Source of the DNA: Martelella sp. NC20 | GTDB taxonomy: Bacteria; Pseudomonadota; Alphaproteobacteria; Rhizobiales; Rhizobiaceae | Assembly (NCBI RefSeq): GCF_013459645.1 | Contig: NZ_CP054861.1 | Location: 3,460,001 to 3,524,000, forward strand | Length of the DNA: 64,000 bases | Direction: 5' to 3' | The notes under the pieces: model-generated | What the model was told of the DNA's origin: nothing | Databases searched by the model: none | The model's input: the letters and a program-made list of their open reading frames with translations, nothing else | In this document: in pieces, positions 1 to 13,706 of the stretch | How positions within the stretch are numbered: position 1 is the first letter of the stretch | Layout of the letters: each line of letters starts with the position of its first letter | Position numbers and translations under genes: made by a program

Positions 1-728
1 TCCAGGTGCTCCATTCGACCAATCGACTTTCGTTCCGTAGCTGGATCGGCAGCACGCAATACCGCTGCAAGGTCGGGGTTGAAACTCAGGGCTCCGGCAA
101 TCGCCGCCTGTTGAGCGGAATTCAGCTTCGCGAGTTTTGCCAGATATGTCCGATCCCGAACATACTCACTGCCCCGAAGCGCTTCGCGAAGGGTTTTATG
201 GATCGATCCATACTTAAATAGGCGATGAGCCGTTCTTTTCGATATCCCAAAAATATCATTTAAGTCATTGAATAAATTTGGAATTTCTTGATTGTTAGCT
301 TCATCTATCAAAGCGCCATTCTGTCGCTTTGATTTTCGATCACCACCGCGTCTGACAGGACCGTTTTCCGCTTCCCATAGCTCGCGAAAAGCCACGACAT
401 ACTCTGCCTCTTCCAACGCGTCGAGCGTAGGCATCGCCAGATTGTCCGATATCGATAGCATAGGCGCGTCCGCCTTGCTGCGCAAGACAGCCTCGATTTC
501 GTCACGGCCGAGGAGTTGCATCGCCCGCAAGCGACGGGCTCCGTAGATGAGGGTGTAAGGCTTCCCGTTTGCTCTGGCGCTGCTAGCATAAACCGCGATG
601 GGGCTTTTCTGCCCTTCGCTCTTGATAAGCTGCGCCAAGCCATGGGCGGCCGCTTCGCTGATCGGCCGAAGGTAGTCTTCTGGCACATGGATTTTGTCGA
701 CAGGGATCGAGAGCCGCCGATCAGTCAT
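1..728 (-). CDS. ParB-like nuclease-domain protein (partial, C-terminus beyond window)
   Basis: Read on the minus strand from the ATG at 726-728; 242 codons are visible and the frame is still open at base 1, so the C-terminus lies outside the window. Residues about 5-90 look like a ParB/Srx N-terminal domain: a start with SIPVDKIHVPEDYLRP, then IYGARRLRAMQLLG, which is the conserved GxRRxxA signature of ParB CTP-binding domains. A basic linker (RRGGDRKSKRQ) and a helix-turn-helix-like stretch (FGISKRTAHRLFKYG) follow. ParB-type proteins bind DNA in plasmid, phage or integrative-element partition or regulation. Here it is coupled by an ATGA overlap to an upstream ribbon-helix-helix gene, and no ParA is visible, so I infer an accessory or mobile-element ParB rather than the chromosomal one. 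Codon use is less GC-rich than the core genes to the right. Confidence 0.75.
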   Translation of the reverse strand, partial: MTDRRLSIPVDKIHVPEDYLRPISEAAAHGLAQLIKSEGQKSPIAVYASSARANGKPYTLIYGARRLRAMQLLGRDEIEAVLRSKADAPMLSISDNLAMPTLDALEEAEYVVAFRELWEAENGPVRRGGDRKSKRQNGALIDEANNQEIPNLFNDLNDIFGISKRTAHRLFKYGSIHKTLREALRGSEYVRDRTYLAKLAKLNSAQQAAIAGALSFNPDLAAVLRAADPATERKSIGRMEHL

Positions 729-877
729 ATATCCAGGTATCCCCTTTCCTTCAGCCAGTCGGTTACGACCTTCTCAAGAAGGGATGACGTCGAACGCGTG
801 TCGTCCTTCGCCGCTTTCTCAAGAGCGGCTTTTGTCTCCGGCGGCAATCTGAAGGAGATCGGCAAGCTTTTTTGCAT
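725..877 (-). CDS. Small ribbon-helix-helix (CopG/Arc-like) DNA-binding protein, 50 aa
   Basis: A short minus-strand gene, ATG at 875-877 and TGA at 725-727, overlapping the ParB-like ATG by ATGA, so the two are probably translationally coupled. The product opens MQKSLPISFRLPPETKAAL, a beta strand followed by the P-x-E-x-K-x-x-L helix pattern typical of MetJ/Arc RHH proteins, then a second amphipathic helix STSSLLEKVVTDWLKERGYL. RHH proteins dimerise and bind operator pairs through the N-terminal strand. The 10-bp inverted repeat at 881-890/921-930 lies immediately upstream of its start, which suggests autoregulation (inference). It may act as partner or repressor of the ParB-like protein. 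No toxin is visible beside it. Confidence 0.7.
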   Translation of the reverse strand: MQKSLPISFRLPPETKAALEKAAKDDTRSTSSLLEKVVTDWLKERGYLDI

Positions 878-880
878 TAT

Positions 881-930
881 TTGTAGTTATCCGTAGTTGA
901 CGCAAATCACTGCGCTACATATAACTACAA
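881..930. promoter_or_regulatory. Perfect 10-bp inverted repeat upstream of the RHH-ParB pair (operator candidate)
   Basis: TTGTAGTTAT at 881-890 is the exact reverse complement of ATAACTACAA at 921-930, with 30 bp between; a third partial copy (CGTAGTTG) sits in the spacer. The repeat starts 3 bp upstream of the RHH gene start and also precedes the rightward gene at 1012, so it could control both directions. Two half-sites about 40 bp apart would place dimers on one helix face. Function is inferred from position. Confidence 0.5.
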
Positions 931-1011
931 ATGCATCAAGCAAGCAAGCGGCCCGACGAGGAAGGTGGAAGCTCCCGCGTCAGGCCTAACCACAGGCAAA
1001 GGAGAGTCCCC

Positions 1012-1215
1012 ATGCCCGCAGCTGCGCAAAGCTATAGCAGCCCGACGCCGGAACGTCAGCAGTCCGGCGAAATCAGTATACCTTCTCACATCGCCGACAG
1101 TTTCGATGATATTCGTTGTATGCTGGAAGCCTTCAATGCCATGAACAACGCTATTCTTTTCACGGGAACGGATCATTCAGGCATCAGCTACGGCGTTCAC
1201 CGGCTTCACGATCTA
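1012..1215 (+). pseudogene. 5' fragment of a 202-aa unknown gene interrupted by an IS element
   Basis: ATG at 1012 follows a strong ribosome-binding site (AAAGGAGA, 7-8 bases upstream). The 68 codons up to CTA at 1213-1215 encode a product beginning MPAAAQSYSSPTPERQQSGE with later IADSFDDIRCMLEAFNAMNN. The reading frame runs into the IS and would stop at 1239. Removing the IS and one copy of the TA duplication joins codon 68 to ATA at 2059 in frame, giving RLHDL-IEDRLEE and a continuous 202-residue protein. I do not recognise the family. The restored frame is direct evidence for a single ancestral gene. An ATG at 931 is also in frame but lacks the good ribosome-binding site. Confidence 0.75.
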
Positions 1216-1982
1216 GGCCGTAGACTCGTAACGCTTTAACCATAGTCGCACAGAGAAGAGCTTGATTGCCGCGAGATAGTTGTCGGCGCGTTTGTCGTAA
1301 CGCGTTGCAATTCCACGCGCTTCTTTGATGCGGTTGAAGAACCGCTCGACGAGGTTTCGATAGCGATAGAGGAACGAACTGAAAGCGAAGGTCTTTTTTC
1401 GGTTTCGCTTCGCCGGGATGTTGGCGAATGCCTTCGCCTGAGTTGCCGTGGCGCGGATGGCGTTGGTGTCATAGCCACGATCTGCCAAAAGCGTCGTTCC
1501 GGCATGAAGTCTGGTGAGCAGATCTTCGGCGTAGCGACAATCAGCATGCTGACCTTCTGAGAGGCGAAGATCAATCGGCAGCCCATCGGCATCGACGAGA
1601 GCGTGGATCTTCGTTGTCAGGCCGCCTCTGGAACGTCCCATGCTTCGATTGGCGCCCCCTTTTTACCGGTGGCGCCATGCTGATGCACGCGAACACAAGA
1701 CGAGTCGATCATCTGAATATCGCCGTCGAAGGCGGAAGAAATCGCCGTGAGAAGGTGATCCCAGACACCAGCCCGCCGCCAGCGGACAAAGCGATTATAA
1801 CAGGTGGTGTGAGGGCCATAGCGTTCCGGAACATCGGCCCATGGGCTGCCGGTACGAAAGCGCCAGAGTATGCCGTTGATCACACGGCGGTCATCGACCC
1901 GCGGTACGCCGCGGCTGTTATTGGGCAGAAGCGGCTCGATCACCGCCCACTCGAAATCCGTCAGGTCAAAACGTCGGCGCAT
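1213..1982 (-). CDS. IS5-family DDE transposase, two overlapping frames joined by predicted -1 frameshift
   Basis: Frame A starts at ATG 1980-1982 behind a strong AAGGAGA site and begins MRRRFDLTDFEWAVIEPLLP, the DUF4096 N-terminal domain; it ends at 1617. Frame B (to 1213) holds the catalytic part. The first catalytic Asp is in MIDSSCVRVHQHG (frame A), the second in LLADRGYDTNAIRA, and Glu is probably that of RIKEARGIATRYDK (frame B). At 1655-1664 the coding strand reads AAAAAGGGGG; a -1 slip there gives GKKGGANRSMGRSRGG, the usual transposase continuity. The frame B stop codon is made from the duplicated TA plus one flanking base, so the C-terminus depends on the insertion site. Confidence 0.85.
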
Positions 1983-2056
1983 CAATGGTCTCCTTTCCAG
2001 AAACCATTGAATCAAGTCATCGCACCCATGTGAACCCCATTTATGGGTTTACGGCC
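1216..2056 (-). mobile_element. IS5-family (IS427-group-like) insertion sequence, 841 bp, with TA target duplication
   Basis: The ends are imperfect inverted repeats: the left end reads GGCCGTAGACTCGTAA from 1216, and the right end read inward from 2056 on the minus strand is GGCCGTAAACCCATAA (13 of 16 identical). Both are flanked by TA (1214-1215 and 2057-2058), a 2-bp target duplication as expected for this group. The element encodes one DDE transposase split over two frames (see the transposase entry). It is inserted in the 202-aa unknown gene, whose frame is exactly restored when the element and one TA are removed. The intact ends and transposase suggest a fairly recent, possibly active insertion. 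Group assignment rests on gene layout and recalled family features, not a database match. Confidence 0.88.
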
Positions 2057-2058
2057 TA

Positions 2059-2463
2059 ATAGAGGACCGGTTGGAAGAGACGGTTAAAGATGTACACACA
2101 TTCGCAAAGAAATTGGAACTAAGCGCAGATTCCAGAGCGGACCAAGGGCACCCCGACAAAACCGGCTTTCTTCTGATGATGCGGTTGATCACACTCACTG
2201 CTTCGGTTTGGCGAGAGACCGGCCGTGAATTTGATGAAAGTGATCCCGCCTGCACACTTGCCGTCACCGACATTGCAAGCGCTATTTGCAGCAGGATCAT
2301 GTCCAGGTTAGAAGATAAGAGTGATTTGCTAGAGGCTGGAGCCCTTTTGCCTTGGGCTGAAGGGCAAATTCGCGAGGCAGTCGCTCAGAGTGCCGAAGAG
2401 CCCAATTCCCTTGATAGCATCACTCGCCGTCTTACGTCGAAGGAAGTGGTTCGTAAGGCTTAG
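2059..2463 (+). pseudogene. 3' fragment of the IS-interrupted unknown gene
   Basis: 134 codons continuing the frame of the 1012-1215 fragment when the IS and one TA are removed; it starts IEDRLEETVKDVHTFAKKLE and ends with TAG... region at KEVVRKA before the stop at 2461-2463. The content is mostly helical: hydrophobic stretches such as GFLLMMRLITLTASVW and several acidic helices (ADQGHPDKTG, EGQIREAVAQSAEEP). No catalytic motif or membrane anchor is evident. A TTG at 2071 could restart translation but has no convincing ribosome-binding site. The function of the intact protein is unknown; its placement beside a ParB/RHH pair suggests it belonged to the same accessory block (inference). Confidence 0.65.
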
Positions 2464-2608
2464 GTACGCAAACAAACAAGAAGCAGGGGGACGCGGGACA
2501 ATTTCGCGTTCCTTTATTGTCAAAACTGGGCGTTCATTTTTGGAGTTATCAGCCGAGCAAAATTACGTCACCGTATGAGAACAATGAAAGCTAACGGTGA
2601 CCGACCTC

Positions 2609-2818
2609 ATGACAAAGCCAGCTCCAATCAATCTCTCCAACGCCCACAGTAACGTCACGCCTGTTTGGTTATTGACCTACTGGCGAGTACTGCGTGGTCC
2701 GGCGAATGGCAATTACGCTTTAGCCTGGACAGCGTTAAGTGATCACCTGCCACCGAACACAACGATGCCAACAATAGAAGAGGCTGCTTCAATTCTCGCC
2801 CAACACCACCTGGTTTGA
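2609..2818 (+). CDS. Small hypothetical protein, 69 aa
   Basis: A short open frame (ATG 2609; an in-frame GTG at 2597 is an alternative) encoding MTKPAPINLSNAHSNVTPVW... and ending ASILAQHHLV. I recognise no domain. It is convergent with the three-gene cassette whose last gene ends at 2830, and lies after the IS-split gene. No clear ribosome-binding site; coding status is uncertain. The 133 bp between 2464 and 2596 hold nothing I can identify. Confidence 0.35.
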   Translation: MTKPAPINLSNAHSNVTPVWLLTYWRVLRGPANGNYALAWTALSDHLPPNTTMPTIEEAASILAQHHLV

Positions 2819-2829
2819 TTTGACAGCAG

Positions 2830-3519
2830 CTACCGTGCCCTCCGACGCGGCGTTTGTAGCTGGTAAAGGCTTTCGCGAAGCGCATCAAGCCATTGGTCAT
2901 CATACCCCGAAGACAATACGACACTCGAATTTCGCTGAAAGGAAATCGCTCCTCTAGCAGAGCTAAATCTTAACTGTACTTTCTCCAACGAATATGATGC
3001 CGGGGCAACAAATTTGATCGCTGCATCAGCAACTTCGCCGCTACCTTTGACCAGGACTTGACCAACAACACCATCAGCTACCGCGATAGACCCAATTTGT
3101 ATTCTTTCGATCACACCGAACAGGCCCACAAGGTTTCGGAAGCCATTTGCCCATGCCAACGGATCGATGTAGGCCTCTTCTATCGAAAACCGTTGATCCA
3201 ATGCTTCCGCAAGCCGACCGATCAGTCGAGAGTTGCCCCTCTTGGGGTCGTGCATTTCTAAACTATTAGTTTCTGGTGTGATCCGGAATTTAGTGCGTAG
3301 GTATTCAACTATCTCATATGATTCTTGATTTCCGAAAGGATCGACTGCCTCATGTGTTATCTGCTGCCTTTGAATAAGGCAGGCCTCAACATAATTGGAG
3401 CGTAGCTGTTCAACTACAAACCCATCAGGTGCACCACTTTCGTAAGGCCTCTTCCTGAGGAGTGTGGCAATCGCGCCAGCATCAAGTTCCGTATGTAAGC
3501 CATACCAGCGAATCCGCAT
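2830..3519 (-). CDS. Unknown protein, third gene of a leftward three-gene cassette (229 aa)
   Basis: Starts at the ATG of a TAATG junction with the preceding gene (1-base overlap), so it is translationally coupled to it. The product starts MRIRWYGLHTELDAGAIATL and appears soluble alpha/beta, without signal peptide or membrane segment. It has a stretch of hydrophobic beta strands (IQIGSIAVADGVVGQVLVKG) and a C-terminal helix ending in a basic tail (QTPRRRAR). I do not recognise the family. The tight coupling with a PD-(D/E)XK-like protein and a highly charged protein suggests a component of a multi-protein complex, possibly the sensor or effector partner (inference). Base composition is clearly more AT-rich than the core genes in the window. 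Confidence 0.7.
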   Translation of the reverse strand: MRIRWYGLHTELDAGAIATLLRKRPYESGAPDGFVVEQLRSNYVEACLIQRQQITHEAVDPFGNQESYEIVEYLRTKFRITPETNSLEMHDPKRGNSRLIGRLAEALDQRFSIEEAYIDPLAWANGFRNLVGLFGVIERIQIGSIAVADGVVGQVLVKGSGEVADAAIKFVAPASYSLEKVQLRFSSARGAISFQRNSSVVLSSGYDDQWLDALRESLYQLQTPRRRAR

Positions 3520-4643
3520 TAGCCATTACCTTTCGAGGGAGACCGCTCCCTACGTATCTCCGCGAGCACATTTTTTGCTGTTGTCTCAAGCCGAGAAAAA
3601 AGGGCCTTTCGAGTGGCGTCGTCAGGCAATTTGAAATTCTGCGGGTGGGTGCCAGTTCTGACTGAAACCCTTGAGTGCCTCGCCCTATATTGGAAGCCAG
3701 TGCCTTGCTGAGCACCTTCAAATAGAGCTTCGAACTCAACTTTGTCGAAAGGATGCTCAGTTTGGGTAGCCGTCCACTTGATGGCCGTAATGAAAAAGCC
3801 ATCTTCCTCCATCTGCCTATATTGTTTAGATACCAACAAATCGCTACCAGTGAGCGCTACGTTCTCAACGAGGTGGGCTAAAGCTTTCTCAACCTCTTCT
3901 TTCTCGACACTTTCCTCTTCTTCGTTCTCGTCTACATCGATATCTTCTGAATCAAGCATTTTGGAAGAAACCTTAAGCCTTGTGACCGTATCTACTTTAT
4001 AACCGGCCATGTTTCCAACGATCTTGACAAAAAAACGAGTTCTCTCTCTGGGGGTGAGGTCTTCTACCGATATGTGCTCTTGAGGAATCGCCGTTTTCTT
4101 TTTTCTTTCAAGCTTCTCAATCAAACTTTCTACAAGCTCCCGCCCTTTGTCACTTCCTGGGAACCGTATTACAACTCCGTCATCGCCGATTTTGAAGTCT
4201 AGTGTAGCCACCTTGTCTTGTCTTTGCGCAAGGGTGGTTCGGGAAAGGTCAAACTCACTGTAGGCGACGGAGGCGACTATCGCATCCTTCCTTTTCAGAG
4301 GTATCTTGACCTCTTCGCTTTCCCCCTCGGTGTTAGCGTATTCCTGAATGACGTCTTGGATCTCCGATGGCGAGAGCTGCATTTTGACAGTGATTGAGCT
4401 CGTGCGTTCCCGCCGCGTGCCTGGCTCGGCGTCTTTTACCAAGTCAATAACGTCTTCCAGATCATGAATGGTTGTCGAAATATAGTTGGCCAGATCAGCG
4501 CGACTCGTGTCTGGGCCGAAGAAGACGCCACGTTCTCGTGAAAGCTGATGAAGGACACGATACGTGATCCTTTTCTTCGACGAAAACATTAAATCGTAAA
4601 GCTCTTTGTCGCTTGCAAAGAGTCGCAGATGCTTACCCTGCAT
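3519..4643 (-). CDS. Unknown charged protein, second gene of the three-gene cassette (374 aa)
   Basis: Overlaps the upstream gene by 11 bases and abuts the downstream one. The N-terminus (SSKKRITYRVLHQLSRERG, then FFGPDTSRADLANYIS) reads like a small helical or winged domain. A central alpha/beta region is followed by a strongly acidic linker around residues 236-258 (DIDVDENEEEESVEKEEVEK), then a C-terminal beta-rich domain with YRARHSRVSVRTGTH. No nucleotide-binding P-loop, signal peptide or membrane helix is visible. A sampled 60-base line (4081-4140) is about 38% GC against roughly 60% in core genes, a sign of horizontal transfer. Function unknown; probably the partner subunit of the nuclease-like first gene (inference). 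Confidence 0.75.
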   Translation of the reverse strand: MQGKHLRLFASDKELYDLMFSSKKRITYRVLHQLSRERGVFFGPDTSRADLANYISTTIHDLEDVIDLVKDAEPGTRRERTSSITVKMQLSPSEIQDVIQEYANTEGESEEVKIPLKRKDAIVASVAYSEFDLSRTTLAQRQDKVATLDFKIGDDGVVIRFPGSDKGRELVESLIEKLERKKKTAIPQEHISVEDLTPRERTRFFVKIVGNMAGYKVDTVTRLKVSSKMLDSEDIDVDENEEEESVEKEEVEKALAHLVENVALTGSDLLVSKQYRQMEEDGFFITAIKWTATQTEHPFDKVEFEALFEGAQQGTGFQYRARHSRVSVRTGTHPQNFKLPDDATRKALFSRLETTAKNVLAEIRRERSPSKGNG

Positions 4644-5631
4644 AATTCATTCCCATTTCCACCGTAGAATAAGAGGTCAAAATTTCTGGGACGTGTGAAA
4701 TTTTTATTTTCGAGAGCCGCTTTGCAAGATCGGTATGGTGGTTCTCACCGGGAATAAAAGCAAGGTATTCCTGAATCGCTTTCTGAAGATTTTGTCGTGC
4801 TTCACCGTCATCCGGCTGAACTTTAATGTCAATTCTCGTCTTGTTTGCGATCAACTCATGTTGCCGCATATAATCAAGCAAGTACATTAAACCTTCCAAG
4901 GTTGTTTTGCGGCGGTGAAAAATCACGAAACCCTGACGTGCTCCGTCTTCGTTAAAATACTCCATAATGATCCAGGGCGACTTCAACATTTCCATTGTTG
5001 CAGCACGGGCATGCTCGCTTCGTACAACTGCATTTCGGACGAGCTGAGGATAAAAAAAAGCACAGTACTGCCTCGCCGGCAGGCGTTTGTCGTCATCGTC
5101 GTCGCCCCGCATTTGCTGTATCTCGCGAGCAACTCTTTGCAGCCAATTGATCTCCTCTGGTCCGAGAACATAGAGGCGTAACTTTTGCCGCAGTCTAATA
5201 TCCTCAGCCCGAATGTCCGAGATCAAACTATCGAATGGCTTATGAAAGTCCCTGTCATGATTATAGACAAAAAGGAGCCCCGAAACCTCGAACGAGGTAC
5301 TCGGATGTGCGTAACGGTTCTGCCAAGTTTCGCTAATATCGGCGCAGGAAACCTGCTCAGCAAGGCTGAACAGCGCGCTCTTTATAGATGCACTTTTGAT
5401 GCTGTCCTTGCTATAGCTTTTCAGATCGCACTGAATATACCGCCGAACATTTGAATATGGCTCATCATAGTAAAAGACAACATCTGTTGGATGGGATTTC
5501 GTCCCGTGAATTTCTTGTTGTTCGCAAGGCCAATTTTCATTCATCGGGCCAGTTGTCTGCCACAAAAACTCTGCAAAAATCTTGCTTGCAAGATCTTCCG
5601 CCATTTGCGCCCGGTTTACTGTTTCCGCCAT
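4633..5631 (-). CDS. PD-(D/E)XK-like nuclease-domain protein, first gene of the three-gene cassette (332 aa)
   Basis: The N-terminal 80 residues show a plausible PD-(D/E)XK core: a helix with Glu at 20-21 (KIFAEFLWQ), then PTDVVFYY with Asp50, a turn, and YIQCDLKSYSK giving D69-x-K71, followed by helices. This spacing (E...D...D-x-K) matches restriction-like phosphodiesterases. The remaining 250 residues are unfamiliar, with an aspartate run near residues 175-180 (RGDDDDDKR) and a C-terminal helical part. It begins the leftward operon and is AT-rich. The family is not one I can name with confidence; two-gene nuclease defence loci with PD-(D/E)XK subunits (for example some GAPS-type systems) are a possible relation that needs a profile search. 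DNA cleavage is inferred only from the motif. Confidence 0.7.
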   Translation of the reverse strand: MAETVNRAQMAEDLASKIFAEFLWQTTGPMNENWPCEQQEIHGTKSHPTDVVFYYDEPYSNVRRYIQCDLKSYSKDSIKSASIKSALFSLAEQVSCADISETWQNRYAHPSTSFEVSGLLFVYNHDRDFHKPFDSLISDIRAEDIRLRQKLRLYVLGPEEINWLQRVAREIQQMRGDDDDDKRLPARQYCAFFYPQLVRNAVVRSEHARAATMEMLKSPWIIMEYFNEDGARQGFVIFHRRKTTLEGLMYLLDYMRQHELIANKTRIDIKVQPDDGEARQNLQKAIQEYLAFIPGENHHTDLAKRLSKIKISHVPEILTSYSTVEMGMNYAG

Positions 5632-6321
5632 TGCTAATACCCCGAATCACGACTCATGGACCTCAGATAGGATATTAAACAATGTATGTTATTAAGAGTA
5701 CCCAATGCAATTCTAGCACCCCTGACCTGAGACCGAAAATTAATCCCACGCGACGGACACTTGCAGGTTCGAAAACCTGAAATTTTCGGCAATCGCTTTG
5801 ATTTCTTTGATATTTTTTTAAACATGCAAGCGTCTTGCATGTTCGGTTTGGATTTTTGCCCGACCTGGCCGCCGGAAGCCGGCTGGGCGGATATTTTTTG
5901 AAGCCCTTTGAAGGGCATTTGAAGCCGGTCCGTGAAAACGCCCCTGCAGCCCCTGAAGCCTTATATCGCAGGCGCTCGGCGGGGGACGGGCCGGTTCAGT
6001 TCCATAAGCAAGCTTATGGTGCGCGTGACGGACGCTTCTGCTTTCACGCCTTTTGAAAAGGGTTGACTGGGGCCGGGCCATGATCGCGCTGACGGTGGCA
6101 GTCTCAAAACCTCAGCTGTCAAAGGCGATGCCCGCCGCTGCCGACCGGAATACTTGCAGATCGCTTGAGAAACAAGGCATTCGCACGGCTTCCCGCCTGT
6201 TTTCGCCTTTTCCCGAATATTGCAGTCTCATCTGTCAAACAACATTCAGCCAGGCGAAGCATCATTGCTCGGCCGATCGGCGTGTCGCGCGGATCGGACA
6301 CGAAGCATCCGAACTCGTCGC
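5632..6321. other. 690-bp intergenic region without recognisable gene; contains two hairpins
   Basis: No frame here has convincing codon use or similarity. It contains a 6-bp stem with a CGAA loop at 5764-5779 and a perfect 10-bp inverted repeat at 5821-5843. It marks the boundary between the AT-rich accessory block on the left and the GC-rich core on the right, so a recombination or attachment site could lie here, but no direct repeat was seen. The promoter of the three-gene cassette must lie near 5635-5760. Confidence 0.5.
5821..5843. repeat. Perfect 10-bp inverted repeat with 3-bp loop
   Basis: AACATGCAAG at 5821-5830 and CTTGCATGTT at 5834-5843 are exact reverse complements around CGT. 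No T-run follows on either strand, so it is not a typical intrinsic terminator; an operator or structured RNA near the cassette promoter is possible. It lies about 190 bp upstream of the nuclease-like gene start. Confidence 0.5.
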
Positions 6322-9057
6322 TTATGACACTCCATCTGCGCCCGGCGTGTCGGGCTGACCCGAACTCCTGTTCCAGCGCAGGTTCATGGCGCGGTCGAGC
6401 CAGCCGAGACCGGCGAGCGCGAGCCCGAGTCCGATGAAGGAAACCACGCGCAGGAGGCCTTCGAGGCCGGAAATATCCACGAGGAAGACCTTTGCGATTG
6501 TCAGGCCGGCGGCGGCCATGGCGACCTTGCGCAGGACATGGGAGCGGCGGGAAAAACTGACCAGAAGCAGGGCTGCGCAGACGACCACCAGCGCGATCGT
6601 GTAGCTGTAGAGCTCGGGCTGGGTGACGCCCGGAACCGAAAGATCATTGCCGCGCCAGAACCGCCTTATCTCGCATCCGACATAAAAGCCGGCAAGCAGG
6701 CTCGAGACGCAGATGAAGCCGATCCGCAGCCTCCGTCCGAGATTGCCGATCTTCCAGGCGCCGATCGCCAGCACGGCGGCGAGCGGCAGGTAGCTGAGCG
6801 CCAGACTGTCGAAAATCGCCGGCCCCGTAACCAGGTTGAAGCGGAACAGCACCGGATTTGTGATCGTCAGCGGCACGGCGATCAGGGCGGTGGCGATCAG
6901 CCCGAACAGCACCGCAAGCGCCACCCTGAAATGCCGAAGCCACCTGCCGGTCGTCGGCAGACGGTTGATCTGGGCGAGCATGGCGATCGCCATCACGGCG
7001 GCAAGCAGCCCCGGCTCATCCGGCACCAGCCGTTGCAGCAGCGCACAGGCAAAGACGGCGGCAATTGTCCATGTGGTGGTCTCGATTGCGACCTGCACGG
7101 ATTGGCGCGGGCGCAAAACCGTAAGTCGCCAGCCGATATAGAGCAGCGCCAGCGTGCCGCCATAGGCCTCGACGAATGCCAGCCATGAGGTGCCGCTGGC
7201 CACCGCCCAGAAAAACCCGGGACTGGCCACCAGCCGGAAGGCGATGATCGCAAGCGCCACCTTGGTGAAGACGCCGATAAGGGCAAGATCGAAACGCCGG
7301 TCGAGCCAGATCGTGAGGATAACCACAATGCCGAGCGCCAGTGTAAGCGCCGTCTGGGTAAGCACAACGAACAGCGCCAGCGCCAGCATCGAGAGCGCGG
7401 CAATGGCAAAAAGCGCCGCGCGCAGCTGACGCCCGGCGCTATCTGCGCTCCGCAAGCTCCGATCCGCCAGAACAGCCATGATCGCCGAGACCGCGAGAAT
7501 ATGGAGGCTCCAGAGATAGTCCCCGAATGCCGCGGTCGGCGACCACAGGAACTGGAAGATGAAAGCGCTTGCCGGCGCAAACGTCGCCGCACCCAGCGCG
7601 AATCCGAAAGCCGCACGGGCGTCGCCGCCGGATCGGGTCATCCGCCAGAAGGCCATGACAGAGGCGATTGCCGACAGGACGAGCGCCAGTGTGATGAAGG
7701 ATGTCGCGGAGGTCGTCACTGTCGTGGACTGCCGGGCGGCGGCGAAATGGCTGAAAAGCGGTCCGTATTCAACAGCCTGCAGGACGGGCACAGCCAGAAA
7801 GGCGGCAGCGGGGAGAAGCGGGATATCCTTCAGCGCCTCCGCCCGGTACATCCATATCAGCGAGGCGCCGAGAACCAGGGTGATGAGCGTGACGGCCACG
7901 TTCGCCTCCGTCACCGACGATGCATTAAGAGACAGGAGAACGCCTGCGCCGCTGACGAACAGCGTCATCGCGGCGACGATCCGGGTCGGGAAATCGGCGC
8001 GCGGCCGGAGACCCGAAAGGGTTGCCAGAACCGTCTGGCCTGCATGCGATGGCACGAAGCTCTGAACCGGAATGATGACGGCCACCAACCAGGAAAGCGC
8101 AAGGAAGGCCGCATAATGGATCAGGCCGCCTGTCGTGACGTAAAGCAGGGTGGCGGCCGTCGCGGTTGCGATCAGCACGATGGCGGATACCCATGCCCAG
8201 CGCTTCACGCTGTCGACGGCAAGGCCGGCAATGGCGATGAATGCGAAATAGTAGAAGAACAGCCAGCCGCTCTCCGCTTCGCCGCCGACGAGAAAGGGCG
8301 CAGCCGTGGCGCCGATAATGCCGACGGCGCTCAGCACCGAGCCGTATAGCCAGCCGAGCGCCACCGCCAGAATGCTGACCAGAACCAGCCCGGCAAGCGT
8401 CGTCTCGGGGGAAACCAGCCCATAGAGAAGACGGGCGGCGAGCACGGCGGAAAAAAGCGTCACCAGCCCCGCCCCGGCAAAGACCGAGGGCAGGGAGCGT
8501 GTCGATGCGGTTGTGTCGTCACCGTAGCGGCGGCGGAGCGCCTCGCCGGCGCCGACCAGCAGCGCTCCCAGCAACAGTGCCCCGGCGACACGCCAGAACG
8601 GCGTCAGAAGCCCGTTTTCAACCCCGTACTGAACCATGAAGATGCCGCCCAGCGCCAGCGAAAGCGCCGCAAGAGCGATCGTCCAGTTCTGACGAAGCCA
8701 TTGTCCGAACTGCCGCATGAGTGTTGCGGTAAACACAAAGGCCCGCGGAGGTCCCTTGACGGCGGCGGATGTCTTTCCGGCGTCTTCCGGCTTTGCATGT
8801 TCCGGCGGCACGATGGTTTCGGCTGCGGACGGTCCCAAACTGCCGGCGGGCATACCAGTTTGCGTTTTCGCGGTGCCGTCTGTTGCGGCAGCAACATCCT
8901 TTTCCGCATCGCCCTGGGTCCGGCGCTCCAGCATTTCCAGCCGGTCACGGGTTTTCCGCTGCTCATCCTCCAGACTCTTGAGACGGCTTTTCACCCTTGC
9001 GTTCGAAATCGCCAGCGCCAGGAGGAGGATAACAAGAAGCCCAAGAACCGAAGACAT
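6322..9057 (-). CDS. DUF2339-family polytopic membrane protein (911 aa)
   Basis: A very long membrane protein: an N-terminal anchor (LGLLVILLLALAISNARVK), a short coiled-coil segment around residues 25-50 (KSRLKSLEDEQRKTRDRLE), a low-complexity Ala/Pro linker to about residue 105, then more than 20 hydrophobic segments to the C-terminus. Length and layout (coiled coil, linker, many helices) fit the DUF2339 predicted membrane protein family, whose role is unknown. It stands alone on this strand, with large gaps on both sides. The ATG at 9055-9057 has only a weak purine stretch upstream. Confidence 0.85.
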   Translation of the reverse strand: MSSVLGLLVILLLALAISNARVKSRLKSLEDEQRKTRDRLEMLERRTQGDAEKDVAAATDGTAKTQTGMPAGSLGPSAAETIVPPEHAKPEDAGKTSAAVKGPPRAFVFTATLMRQFGQWLRQNWTIALAALSLALGGIFMVQYGVENGLLTPFWRVAGALLLGALLVGAGEALRRRYGDDTTASTRSLPSVFAGAGLVTLFSAVLAARLLYGLVSPETTLAGLVLVSILAVALGWLYGSVLSAVGIIGATAAPFLVGGEAESGWLFFYYFAFIAIAGLAVDSVKRWAWVSAIVLIATATAATLLYVTTGGLIHYAAFLALSWLVAVIIPVQSFVPSHAGQTVLATLSGLRPRADFPTRIVAAMTLFVSGAGVLLSLNASSVTEANVAVTLITLVLGASLIWMYRAEALKDIPLLPAAAFLAVPVLQAVEYGPLFSHFAAARQSTTVTTSATSFITLALVLSAIASVMAFWRMTRSGGDARAAFGFALGAATFAPASAFIFQFLWSPTAAFGDYLWSLHILAVSAIMAVLADRSLRSADSAGRQLRAALFAIAALSMLALALFVVLTQTALTLALGIVVILTIWLDRRFDLALIGVFTKVALAIIAFRLVASPGFFWAVASGTSWLAFVEAYGGTLALLYIGWRLTVLRPRQSVQVAIETTTWTIAAVFACALLQRLVPDEPGLLAAVMAIAMLAQINRLPTTGRWLRHFRVALAVLFGLIATALIAVPLTITNPVLFRFNLVTGPAIFDSLALSYLPLAAVLAIGAWKIGNLGRRLRIGFICVSSLLAGFYVGCEIRRFWRGNDLSVPGVTQPELYSYTIALVVVCAALLLVSFSRRSHVLRKVAMAAAGLTIAKVFLVDISGLEGLLRVVSFIGLGLALAGLGWLDRAMNLRWNRSSGQPDTPGADGVS

Positions 9058-9438
9058 ATCAAAAACATTCCACTTTCAGGATAATGCGACAGCTGTAACG
9101 GAGATCACCGTCACCGTTAAGCGCGAACTTGCAGTTGCGCATATGGCGAAAATGGGAAGCGGCTAAAACTATGTTCTGGAATCAACTGAAATGGCTGTTG
9201 TCAGGGTTCTGCGCCTTCAGGAGCAATCGCCCGGCAGCGAAATGATCAAGGCCTGCCGACAAGCCTCTTCCTTCAGGCATCGGACAATCGTCTTGAGGGC
9301 GGCATCGCCGGCCGAATGACCGTGCCGTCAACCTTTTTGAAGCCACAGCGCGCTCCCGAGCAAGGGTTCGCTCTCTACGCATTGCGAACGCCACTTGCAC
9401 GCATGCCAATGTGGCCGTTCAGGCGCTTATATCGGCGG
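9058..9438. other. 381-bp gap with no recognised gene
   Basis: The region upstream of the DUF2339 gene and downstream of dedA. Short frames are present on both strands but none has a ribosome-binding site or familiar product. The DUF2339 promoter should lie within 9060-9180; no clear -35/-10 pair was identified. Confidence 0.4.
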
Positions 9439-9975
9439 TCAGTGCAAGGTGAGGTGCAGGCGCTCGGCGATAACATCCCCGAACATATAGGGTCCGATGG
9501 TCCAGACCGTGGCCCACAACAGGCCGCCGACGAGATTGGCGGCGAAAAACGGCGGCCAGCGCATCCCCATGGAGCCCGCCGCAATCCCGTTCAACTGCCT
9601 GAGGATGACGACGAAGCGGGCGCCGACCACGACCCATGCGCCGCGTCTTTCATAAAGTCCCTCGATCCATTTCTGGCGGTCTTCCGTCATTCCGATGAAA
9701 CGTCCATAGCGCAGGATCAACGCCCGGCCGCCAAACCGGCCGATCAGATAGCCCGTGCTGTCACCCAACACGGCAGCGCAGACAACGACGAAAAATATGC
9801 CTCCGATTGACAATTGTCCGTCGGCTGCCAGCAACGAAGCGCCGATCAATGCGCTTTCGCCCGGCAGCGGCGCGCCGAGCGATTCGAGATAGATGATCAC
9901 GAACAGCGCAAACAGACCATAATGGTGGAGATAGGGTTCGATGAAGGTGATCGACTCTCGAAGAAAATTCGCCAT
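9439..9975 (-). CDS. DedA-family inner-membrane protein (178 aa)
   Basis: Starts MANFLRESITFIEPYLHHYG at ATG 9973-9975; longer in-frame starts upstream would add a hydrophilic extension unlike the family, so this start is preferred. DedA/VTT features are visible: ESLGAPLPGESALIGASLLA near residues 32-51 (the re-entrant E-x-x-x-P-x-P-x-E motif), GDSTGYLIGRFGG near 72-84, then GARFVVILRQLNGIAAGSMGM near 120-140 (the R-x3-P-like arm). DedA proteins act in the inner membrane and are linked to lipid-carrier (undecaprenyl phosphate) or phospholipid flipping and to membrane potential. It diverges from the exopolysaccharide operon, which uses lipid or nucleotide-sugar precursors, but a link is not shown. 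Confidence 0.9.
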   Translation of the reverse strand: MANFLRESITFIEPYLHHYGLFALFVIIYLESLGAPLPGESALIGASLLAADGQLSIGGIFFVVVCAAVLGDSTGYLIGRFGGRALILRYGRFIGMTEDRQKWIEGLYERRGAWVVVGARFVVILRQLNGIAAGSMGMRWPPFFAANLVGGLLWATVWTIGPYMFGDVIAERLHLTLH

Positions 9976-10266
9976 GGGGACCTGCTGCCTGATGACACCG
10001 GCATGCGTTTCAAAGCCGGTTTGGTTGGTCTTGTTTGGTTGGTCATGGCTCACCTTGCCCGATTTCCGTCCCTGACGCCACAGCGCTCTTTCGCCTGCGA
10101 GGCCAGCGTCGTCGGCGCGAGCATTGACCGGCTCTGGTCGCCACACGCGCCATGGAAAAACGGAAGGTTAACGAAACGTAATCCGTACAAAAGACACGTT
10201 CTGCCAATATTTGGTGTTTCCCAATCCGGGACCACCGGATTCCTCTGTTATGGATCGGAATTCTCA

Positions 10267-11466
10267 TTGGCCAAGATTCTCTGTGTTTTCGGCACCCGCC
10301 CGGAGGCCATAAAAATGGCTCCTGTGGTTAATGAGCTGAGACTTGATAGCGCTATCACAACCGAAGTTTGTGTCACCGGCCAGCATCGGAGCATGCTCGA
10401 TCAGGTGCTGTCGCTGTTCGAAATCAAACCGGATTTCGACCTTTCGGTTATGGCCCCCAATCAGGGGCTGAATGCGCTCTGCGCGAAGATGATCGCGGGT
10501 CTCGACCAGGTGTTCGAGCAATCGCGGCCCGATTTCGTCCTTGTCCATGGCGATACGACCACGGCAATGGCGGCGGGCATTGCCGCCTTTCACCGCGGCA
10601 TTGCCATCGGCCATGTCGAGGCGGGCCTCAGAACCTACGATCTTTCAAAGCCCTGGCCCGAAGAAATGAACCGGCGCGTTGTCGATGTCATGTCGGCCTA
10701 TCATTTCGCTCCGACCCTATCGAGCGCGCGCAATCTCGCGGGCGAGCATCTTCAGGGCACGGTTGTCGTTACCGGCAATACGGTGATCGATGCGCTGACG
10801 GAGATTGCGGCCCGCATCCGCCGCGACGCCGCCCTGCGGGCCCGGCTGGACGCCCGTTTTCCGTTTCTGGATTCCGAGTTGAAGACCCTGCTTGTCACCG
10901 GGCATCGCCGCGAGAGTTTCGGCGGCGGATTCATCAATATCTGCAAGGCGCTGCGTGAACTCGCCCGGCGCGAAGACCTGCAGATCGTCTATCCCGTGCA
11001 TTTGAACCCGAATGTCGCGGGGCCGGTCAAGGATATGCTGGGCGGCCTGAACAATGTGCATCTGATCGAGCCGCAGGCCTATCTCGAATTCGTGTATCTG
11101 ATGGAGCGCTCCCATATCATCCTGACCGATTCGGGCGGCGTGCAGGAAGAGGCGCCCTCGCTTGGAAAACCTGTCCTGGTGATGCGCGACGTCACCGAGC
11201 GACCGGAAGCGCTTGCGGCCGGAACGGTGAAACTGGTCGGAACCGACACGGACAAGATCATGCGCGAGGTCGCCCGGCTTTTGGACGATCCCCGCGCCCA
11301 TGCACTCCAATCCGCCGCCATCAACCCCTATGGCGACGGCAAGGCCGCGCAGCGCATCGTCGATACGCTGGCCGGAAGAACCGTCATTCCCTTCGCTGCG
11401 GGCGCCGCCCCGCATGCCCGCCCGTATGCAATGCAGGCTGCTGCACTGAGGACTGCCACGAAATGA
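10267..11466 (+). CDS. wecB: UDP-N-acetylglucosamine 2-epimerase (non-hydrolysing)
   Basis: Interconverts UDP-GlcNAc and UDP-ManNAc in the cytoplasm. The protein from the TTG at 10267 begins (M)AKILCVFGTRPEAIKMAPV, the typical N-terminus, and shows VHGDTTTAMA, GHVEAGLRT (UDP site), VTGHRRESFGGG and TDSGGVQEEAP, all hallmark motifs. The length of 399 residues matches the family (about 375) with a slightly longer C-tail. The frame extends upstream but no better start exists; GGATCGGA lies just before the TTG. It overlaps the next gene by ATGA. Its place at the head of an NfrB/NfrA-like operon suggests that it supplies UDP-ManNAc for the polysaccharide made by that operon, as WecB (NfrC) does for E. 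coli phage N4 receptor. Confidence 0.93.
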   Translation: MAKILCVFGTRPEAIKMAPVVNELRLDSAITTEVCVTGQHRSMLDQVLSLFEIKPDFDLSVMAPNQGLNALCAKMIAGLDQVFEQSRPDFVLVHGDTTTAMAAGIAAFHRGIAIGHVEAGLRTYDLSKPWPEEMNRRVVDVMSAYHFAPTLSSARNLAGEHLQGTVVVTGNTVIDALTEIAARIRRDAALRARLDARFPFLDSELKTLLVTGHRRESFGGGFINICKALRELARREDLQIVYPVHLNPNVAGPVKDMLGGLNNVHLIEPQAYLEFVYLMERSHIILTDSGGVQEEAPSLGKPVLVMRDVTERPEALAAGTVKLVGTDTDKIMREVARLLDDPRAHALQSAAINPYGDGKAAQRIVDTLAGRTVIPFAAGAAPHARPYAMQAAALRTATK

Positions 11467-13706
11467 AGAACAATAAATCCGTCCTGTCCAGGAACGCCAT
11501 GATCGCCACCCTGCTTGCGAGCACTGTGGCGCCAGTCCTGCTGGTCCCGCAGGTGAGCCATGCCGGCGCCATCGCGGATACGCTTGCGGCAAGGGCCGAG
11601 GATCGCGTGATTACCCGCAAGGTCACGCTGGAGGAACTCGGCATCGGCACGCCGGTGACGCTTGGATCAATCGGGGCCGAACACGATATCTATATCCCCG
11701 TTCCTGCGGGCGTCGAACTGATCGACCCCACGCTTTATTTCGAAGGCCGGTATCTGCGTGCGGATGGCGGGCAGACCACCTACACCCTGTCGGCCGACAA
11801 TCGGATGCTCCTTGCCCGCTCGCCGACGGATGATGGCGGCACGGCCGATATCAAGGTCGGCATTGACGGCGCGGCGCGCGACAATGGTTTCGTTCATCTC
11901 AAGGTGAACTGGTCTTCCTCCACCGGGCAGTACTATTGCGACGATGCGCGTTCGATCGGCAATTTGCTCGAGATCGAGCCCGACACCTATCTGGAATACG
12001 GCTATGCCGCCGCCGCGGTGAAGGATATCAGCACGGCATGGTCGGCGCTTCCCGCGGAAGTCACGCTGCTGGTGTCGGGAAACCGTCTCGACAAGGGCAG
12101 CTATGATGCCGCATGGCGCATCGGGACCGCGCTCCAGCGCGACGGCAAGACCGTCAGGACCATCGCCTTGCCGAAGGTCGGCGACCGGGTCTATACCGCG
12201 GCGCTGACGGTGCCGCCATCGCTTGCGGGCGTTCCGGCCTTCAAGGCCTTTTCTGGTGGCGGCGAGGTCCAAATCGCCAATGAAGCCGAGATCGGCGCGC
12301 TGATGCTGCTGGACGCTCCGCAATTCAGCGCCGATATCGCCGTCGCTGACGACGCGATGGCGCAGGCGCTGAAATCCGCGCTCGATGCGGTTTCCGCGGA
12401 ACTCGTTGCGGCCGATGGCGCAGCCGTCGCCGCGGTCGCAACCGCCCGACAGGATCTCAACTCGCTTGGCCAGACCGTCGGTTCGGATACCGTCGGGCTT
12501 CGCACGCTTTCGGGCCGGCCGGTGATCGCGATCTCGCCGGATGCGGCCAATGCGGCCGTCGGCCTGTTCAATACGTTGTGGCGCCAGTCGGCGGTGTCGG
12601 GAGACCTCACGCTTGCCGCTGCGGCGATGCCATCGGGGGAGGGCAACGCCATTCCGCTTGGTGCGCTGGGCAAAGCGCCAAGCCGGCTTGACGTTGTGGC
12701 AAAGGGCGACTGGTCCACGAAATTCGACCTCGGCGCGGCTGCACCCGGAAAGGTGCCGAGCCGGCTCGATATCAACGTCTCGGCGGCCCCCGGTGCCACC
12801 GCGACGCTGCCCGTCGCTTCGGTTTCGATCAACGGCTATCTGCTGGGAGCCAAACAGCTGAGGGCCGACGGCACGCCCGAGCGGATCTCGGTCGACATAC
12901 CCGCCTATACCCTGCTGCCGCGCAATGTCGTCAATGTCGAGTTCCAGCGCCAGCCCGCGAGCGACCAGTGTCGCGAAGTCCCGCAGGCCTATCCCGCCGC
13001 GGTATTGCCGGACAGCCGCGTCCTGTTCAAGGACGCGCCCGCCGCCGATAATTTCACGTCGCTTGTGGCAAGGCTTGCCGGCGATAGCGAGGTCGCCGTG
13101 CCGGCTTCATGGCTCGACGATGCGCTCAGGACATTGCCGACAGTGATGAGCGTGGCCGACGCGGCGGGCGTTTCGCCGGCGCGCGCCGAACTCGCGGTTG
13201 TCGATACGGCCACCGCCGCGGTGCCGGACAAGCCCTTCCTGTTCTTCGATATCGCGCCGGAACAGGGCTCGCACCGCATCACCGTGACGGGTGACAATAT
13301 CCGGATAGATTCCGCGCGCGGCGAGCGGCTTTTCGATGCCACGGGGCTCTCCGACGTTTCCGTTGCCGAGGCCGTGCTCGACCAGAACCAGCCGGGGCTT
13401 TATTACCGGACGGTCGGCGCCGGGGCCGACCTCAGCAAGCCGTTCAGCTTCGGGCAGGGCGATGTGGCCATTATCGGCGAAAGCGGCGTTCTGACGGCGC
13501 TGAACGCCGGCGGCAACACGATCTACGCCGCGTCCGGGGCGCAGCGCGACGAAAGCGACGGCTCGACGCTGCGCTTGATCACGAGCCCGAAATTCTGGGT
13601 GGAACAGGCGCCATGGGCGCTCACCACGCTGATCATCGGCGGCTTCATCCTTCTTGTTTTGCTGGCCGGGATCGCGCGCCGCAGGAATCGGGACAAGCAG
13701 GACTAG
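11463..13706 (+). CDS. BcsB-like periplasmic polysaccharide-synthase accessory subunit (747 aa)
   Basis: The ATGA overlap with wecB fixes the start. A signal peptide (residues 1 to about 35, ending near SHAGA) leads to a large beta-rich periplasmic domain, with one C-terminal membrane helix (ALTTLIIGGFILLVLLAGIA) and a basic cytoplasmic tail RRRNRDKQD. This is the layout of BcsB, the periplasmic partner of cellulose synthase BcsA, and the family resemblance includes the carbohydrate-binding-like repeat regions. The partner here is the NfrB-like synthase, so it probably guides that polymer through the periplasm (inference). In E. coli the nfr operon encodes the small YbcH instead, so this is a different accessory arrangement. 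Confidence 0.75.
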   Translation: MKNNKSVLSRNAMIATLLASTVAPVLLVPQVSHAGAIADTLAARAEDRVITRKVTLEELGIGTPVTLGSIGAEHDIYIPVPAGVELIDPTLYFEGRYLRADGGQTTYTLSADNRMLLARSPTDDGGTADIKVGIDGAARDNGFVHLKVNWSSSTGQYYCDDARSIGNLLEIEPDTYLEYGYAAAAVKDISTAWSALPAEVTLLVSGNRLDKGSYDAAWRIGTALQRDGKTVRTIALPKVGDRVYTAALTVPPSLAGVPAFKAFSGGGEVQIANEAEIGALMLLDAPQFSADIAVADDAMAQALKSALDAVSAELVAADGAAVAAVATARQDLNSLGQTVGSDTVGLRTLSGRPVIAISPDAANAAVGLFNTLWRQSAVSGDLTLAAAAMPSGEGNAIPLGALGKAPSRLDVVAKGDWSTKFDLGAAAPGKVPSRLDINVSAAPGATATLPVASVSINGYLLGAKQLRADGTPERISVDIPAYTLLPRNVVNVEFQRQPASDQCREVPQAYPAAVLPDSRVLFKDAPAADNFTSLVARLAGDSEVAVPASWLDDALRTLPTVMSVADAAGVSPARAELAVVDTATAAVPDKPFLFFDIAPEQGSHRITVTGDNIRIDSARGERLFDATGLSDVSVAEAVLDQNQPGLYYRTVGAGADLSKPFSFGQGDVAIIGESGVLTALNAGGNTIYAASGAQRDESDGSTLRLITSPKFWVEQAPWALTTLIIGGFILLVLLAGIARRRNRDKQD

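Follow-up and report, generated by a model that had tools for sequence, protein, structure and literature searches.

Three overlapping genes on the minus strand of a 64,000-nucleotide stretch of the Martelella sp. NC20 chromosome (the window) raise the question of whether they form a new anti-phage system or a copy of a known one, and of how their products might act. The initial annotation had read them as an unrecognised defence system comprising a nuclease-like protein and two unfamiliar partners, and had stated that none of the proteins belonged to a family that it could name. We therefore compared the three proteins with defence-system and phage protein models, analyzed their relatives in other genomes, phages and plasmids, and weighed several explanations of their function.

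Identity of the cassette

The layout proposed for the locus was confirmed, as three co-directional open reading frames span positions 5631 to 2830 on the minus strand and overlap by 11 bases and 1 base. The features of the cassette are:

4633–5631, minus strand: Hp1, 332 aa, predicted PD-(D/E)XK-type nuclease with residues E3, D50, D69 and K71 (PADLOC PDLC03004, PHROG 7059)
3519–4643, minus strand: Hp2, 374 aa, partner protein (PADLOC PDLC03005, PHROG 6531)
2830–3519, minus strand: Hp3, 229 aa, least conserved partner (PADLOC PDLC03006, PHROG 5850)
4633–4643, minus strand: overlap of the Hp1 stop and the Hp2 start, 11 bases
3519, minus strand: overlap of the Hp2 stop and the Hp3 start, 1 base (TAATG)

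The 11-base overlap recurs in three other loci (L009, L010 and L011), as judged from the aligned Hp2 start. The PADLOC models Hp1, Hp2 and Hp3 match the cassette proteins in this order (E = 4.9e-41, 4.1e-33 and 1.9e-6), as do PHROGs 7059, 6531 and 5850 (1.3e-88, 3.5e-67 and 1.2e-24), and across the alignments the same PADLOC models match all 93 Hp2 proteins and 89 of the 101 Hp3 proteins. We take these PADLOC models to be the components of Rst_3HP, in line with the annotation of a Vibrio phage, in which the same cassette is labelled Rst_3HP Hp1/Hp2/Hp3 and Hp1 is split in two. Likeness to Rst_3HP thus extends to all three protein families, the gene order and the tight spacing, and the cassette is almost certainly a complete Rst_3HP anti-phage system in a rhizobial-type copy. 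The system was hence wrongly called unrecognised, and family models exist for each of its proteins; what stands of that reading is a phage-defence cassette whose first protein is PD-(D/E)XK-like and is accompanied by dedicated partners, the whole lying in a variable block of low GC.

Three genes without clear predicted domains from a P2-like hotspot of E. coli, cloned by Rousset et al. 2022, protect against phage P1 (PMC9122126). The table of a later review places 3HP under unknown mechanism (PMC10855318), and we found no mechanism for 3HP or Rst_3HP in the literature searched. Whereas the E. coli and Klebsiella copies lie in the P2-like hotspot, the window copy sits on a rhizobial-type chromosome with an insertion sequence as its neighbour, and its surroundings showed no P2-like prophage. 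Its Hp1, Hp2 and Hp3 are approximately 28, 25 and 15% identical to the E. coli proteins. The E. coli cassette comprises WP_000508501 (Hp1), WP_001085272 and WP_000756244.

Nuclease signature of Hp1

A conserved D...(D/E)xK motif preceded by an E marks the PD-(D/E)XK superfamily, and Hp1 carries both elements. The E...D50...D69-L-K71 arrangement first noticed in the window protein is conserved across an alignment of 91 Hp1 proteins, which includes the window protein itself and otherwise consists mostly of sequences less than 50% identical to it: D50, D69 and K71 are invariant (91/91), and E3 is present in 90 of 91, with one gap. Existing annotation partly points the same way. Pfam family PF26115 (precomputed assignments) is recorded on 120 listed of 171 Hp1 relatives, the window protein (P0001) included, and the UniRef name of one relative (P0102) begins 'GAPS4 PD-(D/'. 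The E. coli Hp1 WP_000508501 is named 'PD-(D/E)XK nuclease domain-containing protein' by NCBI in one genome (NZ_CM166341), and an identical protein is labelled hypothetical in another E. coli record.

In profile comparison by hhalign, the Hp1 N-terminus scored 26.6 against the catalytic core of Mrr-type nucleases (Mrr_cat, PF04471), a score reached by 0 of 200 column permutations. The match covers Hp1 residues 48–92 and depends on alignment treatment, since removal of the insert columns lowered the score to 14.8, reached by 9 of 200 permutations, with the reversed profile at 17.0; no other domain common to Hp1 and the Mrr-type enzymes was found. DUF4365, which we take to be another PD-(D/E)XK family, was tried as the nearest nuclease family of Hp1 and gave no match (3 usable sequences of 4). 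Taken together, the sequences suggest that Hp1 is a DNA-cutting enzyme with two constant partners.

Properties of the partner proteins

The long acidic linker attributed to the second protein is real and occupies Hp2 residues 229–252; by raw count, at least 9 D/E residues within some 20-residue stretch occur in 69 of 93 aligned Hp2 proteins. Hp2 residues 26–52 give a weak helix-extension-helix (Rho_N-like) signal, with 3 of 200 permutations reaching its score. Rho_N was used for this comparison (29 of 30 loci usable), as the SAP source sequence came from just 2 of 150 genomes; a SAP match to Hp2 (E = 0.14) was present in only 1 of 10 members. Hp2 may be a DNA-binding tether.

Hp3 is labelled RdgC (Pfam PF04381) in Pseudomonas phage 54-4, and comparison with 30 RdgC proteins gave an hhalign probability of 0.04%, so that we regard this as a label only. 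Searches for relatives of Hp3 outside its own family found none. Hp1, Hp2 and Hp3 show no similarity to one another (P = 0.14 to 0.32), and searches by sequence and by profile returned no significant PDB relatives for any of the three.

These properties bear on the reading of the cassette as a restriction enzyme that is modification-dependent or sequence-specific, with Hp2 and Hp3 reading a DNA mark or site, by analogy with type IV restriction. Mrr is a type IV enzyme, and the resemblance of the Hp1 N-terminus to Mrr_cat, seen in most treatments and weaker with insert columns removed, is consistent with such a reading, as is the lack of a methyltransferase among the three genes. However, the Mrr match spans just part of the catalytic core, and neither an NTPase nor a known DNA-mark reader domain appears in Hp2 or Hp3 among the Pfam matches listed (E up to 0.1; best 25 of 70 and best 25 of 31 families), and we consider a type IV-like enzyme improbable. 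Type II restriction-modification systems differ from the cassette by their partner methyltransferase: in the cassette proteins, the searches turned up no methyltransferase, helicase or ATPase.

Linkage and constraint across relatives

Of the 168 Hp1 loci compared with that of the window (a partly redundant set, sampled as the best 80 of 134, the best 80 of 91 and a further 8), 159 hold the full trio, and all 159 agree in order and strand. Eight of the nine incomplete loci break off at a contig end, and the ninth (L063), which has a broken Hp2, is the sole Hp1 locus without intact partners where the contig continues. In tblastn searches, all phage and plasmid records that Hp2 or Hp3 retrieved were retrieved by Hp1 as well; the queries were an E. 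coli-type trio for phages and an Enterobacter/Klebsiella-type trio for plasmids, by which distant solitary copies would be missed. The initial annotation had named homologues occurring as single genes in core positions as evidence against a defence role; these were looked for and were not seen in the sampled loci and records.

The three proteins co-vary strongly over 81 loci (r = 0.90, 0.81 and 0.81, against permutation maxima of 0.10 to 0.12). Mean identity falls from 36% for Hp1 to 26% for Hp2 and 21% for Hp3, so that conservation is highest in Hp1 and lowest in Hp3. In 8 gene comparisons with three relatives, non-synonymous change stayed at 0.13–0.42 per site, well under the synonymous values of 0.73–0.95, which are saturated in 7 of the 8; this difference argues for strong constraint on the family.

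Eight phage records, of P2-like and Pf phages, and 22 plasmid records carry relatives; where the element is P2-like, in Klebsiella and E. coli, the cassette lies between portal and replication genes. Of 8 annotated loci, 4 (two in P2-like and two in Pf phages) have methyltransferases in the vicinity, in varied places and apart from the cassette, and the other 4 have none.

Abortive infection is common among small phage-borne systems, and Rst_3HP could act in this way, with a phage product being sensed, the Hp1 nuclease attacking host DNA or RNA so that the infected cell stops, and Hp2 and Hp3 serving as inhibitor and sensor. Except in L063, every retrieved locus whose contig extends far enough pairs Hp1 with its partners, as would fit a nuclease needing restraint. 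Conversely, protection against P1 was reported without the system being called abortive in the part of that study consulted (PMC9122126). We regard abortive action as a serious contender that is nonetheless somewhat doubtful.

A proposed model for Rst_3HP and its possible relation to GAPS4

We propose instead a mechanism directed at phage DNA. Hp1 would be the effector, cutting DNA through a metal-dependent active site formed by D50, D69 and K71 with assistance from E3, and would be kept inactive in a complex with Hp2. Hp2, which also carries the acidic stretch, would perhaps contact DNA via its N-terminal helix-extension-helix segment. The fast-evolving Hp3 would recognise an infection-specific cue, upon which the complex would destroy phage DNA. 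With no methyltransferase, helicase or ATPase found, it would be the cue, and not DNA modification, that distinguishes self from non-self. Drawn from sequence comparisons, the model as a whole is about evenly poised between right and wrong; its nuclease part is the only well-supported part.

PF26115 links the window Hp1 and its listed relatives with GAPS4, a link that runs through the domain family and the name of P0102. In work by Mahata and colleagues from 2024, GAPS4 is said to be Gamma-Mobile-Trio anti-phage system 4, made up of two genes including GAPS4b. Such a two-gene layout contrasts with the company of both Hp2 and Hp3 in nearly all the Hp1 loci sampled. We tentatively suggest, while thinking it rather less probable than its opposite, that a single superfamily of immune nucleases, independent of modification and sharing an Hp1-type core (PF26115), unites Rst_3HP and GAPS4, and that its tripartite branch would have added the helix-extension-helix DNA tether of Hp2 and a rapidly evolving Hp3 recogniser, yielding an ATP-free, methylase-free complex licensed by a phage-specific cue.

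As a further copy of a catalogued defence system, the finding is in itself ordinary, and its value lies with Rst_3HP. That the catalytic residues are invariant, that the three genes are strictly linked and that conservation declines from Hp1 (high) to Hp3 (low) leads to a nuclease-plus-sensor model open to testing, and the tie between Hp1 and the nuclease family of GAPS4 may point to an effector common to two separately named systems.

Genomic setting of the window copy

The cassette has a GC content of 47.8%, compared with 62.0% in window positions 6322–64000. The value near 38% given initially for a sampled part was not found, the lowest 200-bp stretch being at 40.0%. As for the proposed neighbours, an insertion sequence and a ParB/RHH pair, the former was borne out by inverted ends to the left of the cassette and contains two frames that we take to be transposase-like; an ORF left of the cassette is presumably ParB-like. 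The flanking features are:

1214–1231 and 2041–2058: inverted ends of the insertion sequence, 18 nt, 83% complementary
5906–6244: stretch in common with a sister genome (G126), 339 bp, 82%, near the same chromosomal gene

An Rfam scan of window positions 1–12000 and tRNA scans of the window and of one further locus (L200) returned nothing, and counts of promoter-like sites (4 versus 3.0 in shuffles) and terminator-like sites (8 versus 4.7, sd 2.2) were uninformative.

Among 13 genomes of the genus, the cassette occurs in the source genome alone. This distribution, the low-GC block and the adjoining insertion sequence would fit a prophage or plasmid remnant inactive as defence in this genome. 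Against this, all three frames are open, and the strong constraint and three-protein co-variation, both properties of the family and not of this copy alone, also argue for function; we judge an inactive remnant very unlikely. For the block carrying this Rst_3HP copy, the stretch at 5906–6244 is a possible right limit of acquired DNA, and in one sister genome other defence-type genes occupy the cassette site.

Identity of the cassette

The three genes of the cassette overlap by 11 bases (Hp1/Hp2) and by 1 base (Hp2/Hp3), the latter junction being a TAATG stop-start, as translational coupling would predict.

Open reading frames of the cassette (window coordinates)
4633-5631, minus strand, Hp1, 332 aa
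3519-4643, minus strand, Hp2, 374 aa
2830-3519, minus strand, Hp3, 229 aa

GC content is 47.8% in the cassette versus 62.0% in window 6322-64000. The initial annotation had put it near 38%, which is too low, as the minimum measured per 200 bp was 40.0%.

The PADLOC models Hp1, Hp2 and Hp3 matched the three proteins in order (E = 4.9e-41, 4.1e-33 and 1.9e-6), and PHROGs 7059, 6531 and 5850 matched them more strongly than the PADLOC models; Pfam and NCBIfam scans of the same proteins gave no match above cut-off. A Vibrio phage record labels the corresponding genes Rst_3HP Hp1, Hp2 and Hp3. The cassette is a further copy of this already known phage-defence system, and the claim that it was unrecognised fails, given that PADLOC models match all three proteins. 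We take Rst_3HP to be the three-gene P2-hotspot system of Rousset et al., a tie based on a DefenseFinder passage and on position: in both E. coli and Klebsiella, P2-like elements carry the cassette with portal genes on one side and replication genes on the other. The DefenseFinder passage names Rst_3HP among systems discovered in prophages or phages and cites Rousset et al. (PMC9090908). Rousset et al. 2022 (PMC9122126) describe three genes without clear predicted domain, cloned from a P2-like prophage hotspot, as protecting E. coli from P1; the name 3HP is absent from the text searched. Klebsiella phage NC_049448 / MK416011 also carries Rst_3HP, and a GAPS1-like protein has been reported in it, in passages that name no gene (PMC12774648).

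Conservation and distribution of the trio

We assembled 169 partly redundant loci from Hp1-alignment scans (the best 80 of 134 genome loci and the best 80 of 91 viral-contig loci), 8 annotated loci and the window's own copy; the 164 usable Hp1 proteins gave 85 at 80% identity. The full trio was present in 160/169 loci (159/168 without our own copy), with identical order and strand in all 159 other complete loci. Eight of the nine incomplete loci break off no more than 330 bases from the end of a contig; in the ninth (L063) Hp2 is broken and no Hp3 was found. The largest Hp2-Hp3 gap among complete trios, ~1.3 kb, occurs in a viral contig (L146). Pairwise identities co-varied among the three proteins across 81 loci (r = 0.90, 0.81 and 0.81; maxima of 0.10 to 0.12 in 500 permutations), with mean identity falling from Hp1 (36%) to Hp2 (26%) and Hp3 (21%). 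The three genes are linked, open and constrained.

Among phage records, E. coli-type Hp1 and Hp2 queries found the same 8, and Hp3 found 5 of those. On plasmids, Enterobacter/Klebsiella-type queries matched 23 records with Hp1, 2 of them only over its first 44 residues; all records matched by Hp2 (16) or Hp3 (15) fall within these 23. In the Klebsiella pneumoniae plasmid NZ_MT815555 (2313-3406), also among the 23, Hp1 matched in two pieces (78%) and Hp2 and Hp3 at 99.8-100%, so Hp1 may be interrupted there. Hp1 is rare in the phylum (3/398 sampled genomes, own included), Hp2 and Hp3 coming next in both other genomes, and within the order only our own genome has it (1/397 sampled). Of 5426 E. 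coli genomes, 18 carry the E. coli cassette, and 17 of these have 80% or more of it.

Hp1 as a predicted nuclease

Across 91 aligned Hp1 proteins, D50, D69 and K71 show no variation, and 90 have E3, the remaining one having a gap. These four residues form the PD-(D/E)XK signature, D...(D/E)xK plus an upstream glutamate. W24, Y55, P58, P48, L70, S72, F121 and P158 are likewise invariant, as are C36, H42, H47 and C96 (91/91), which may constitute a metal site besides the nuclease motif. NCBI annotates Hp1 in one E. coli genome as a PD-(D/E)XK nuclease domain-containing protein, the identical protein being called hypothetical in another record. Pfam PF26115 is assigned to the 120 listed of 171 Hp1 relatives, and the UniRef name of one relative starts 'GAPS4 PD-(D/', GAPS4 being a separately named anti-phage system.

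We compared the first 135 columns of the Hp1 profile with Mrr_cat (the catalytic domain of Mrr-type nucleases, PF04471) built from 30 sequences. The score of 26.6 was reached by 0/200 column permutations, and under two other column treatments the score was reached by 0/60 permutations in each; with insert columns removed, it was 14.8, reached by 9/200 permutations, and the reversed profile scored 17.0. At the sequence level, the motif evidence for a nuclease is strong, and the match to Mrr_cat moderate at best. The nuclease motif, the cassette and its defence role, all proposed initially, are upheld.

Hp2, Hp3 and a possible mechanism

Hp2 residues 26-52 gave an alignment to Rho_N (29 sequences) that was equalled or exceeded by 3/200 permutations; Hp3 and Hp1 were not distinguished from permutations in this comparison (20/100 and 51/100). 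Weak DUF4518 matches occurred in 14/93 Hp2 members (best 1.6e-5); in the three members inspected (of 10), they covered residues 10-90 and stayed below the family cut-off. Together, the two matches suggest nucleic-acid binding by Hp2, whose family commonly has an acidic stretch. For Hp3, no relative was detected outside its own family. One phage record labels it RdgC, which our comparison did not support.

Literature searches, in a collection with few subscription journals, gave no mechanistic paper on Rst_3HP among those listed. We infer an immune nuclease complex built from Hp1, Hp2 and Hp3, in which Hp1 would cut, probably DNA, Hp2 would tether and restrain, and Hp3 would recognise. The main rival is abortive infection, which would use identical parts. 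PADLOC, PHROGs, Pfam and NCBIfam scans detected no methyltransferase or NTPase in the three proteins, and methyltransferases occur elsewhere in 4/8 annotated loci (P2-like and Pf phages), with none in the other 4; modification-based self-recognition by Rst_3HP therefore seems unlikely.

Chromosomal site

A long gene (window 6322-9057) lies to the right of the block and is present in 10/13 genus genomes, own included; Hp1 occurs in 1/13, our own. In G126, the sister genome with the most similar copy of the long gene, the corresponding side holds different genes, a defence-type cluster (L213:3338-12115).

Genes of the G126 cluster
C5 methyltransferase
1003-aa protein, weak type II endonuclease match
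578-aa protein, without match
HEC-07/NsnC-like protein
Second methyltransferase

The variable site thus houses other defence-type genes in at least one sister genome. Window 5906-6244 (339 bp) is common to our genome and G126, and in G128 and G130, the other sister genomes compared, matches are confined to the long gene and its right side.

An insertion sequence at 1214-2058, with 18-nt inverted ends and two overlapping putative transposase-like frames, seems to terminate within flanking ORFs (window 925-1236 and 2071-2463). Our own genome also has, to the left of the window, an ORF of 1342 aa (L200:2767-6795) that lies in a 51% GC stretch adjoining a Y-family polymerase gene and had no match in a Pfam search at 0.001. 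A protein at L200:16452-17393, a few kb left of the cassette, matches Phage_cap_E (3.1e-7), a phage capsid trace.
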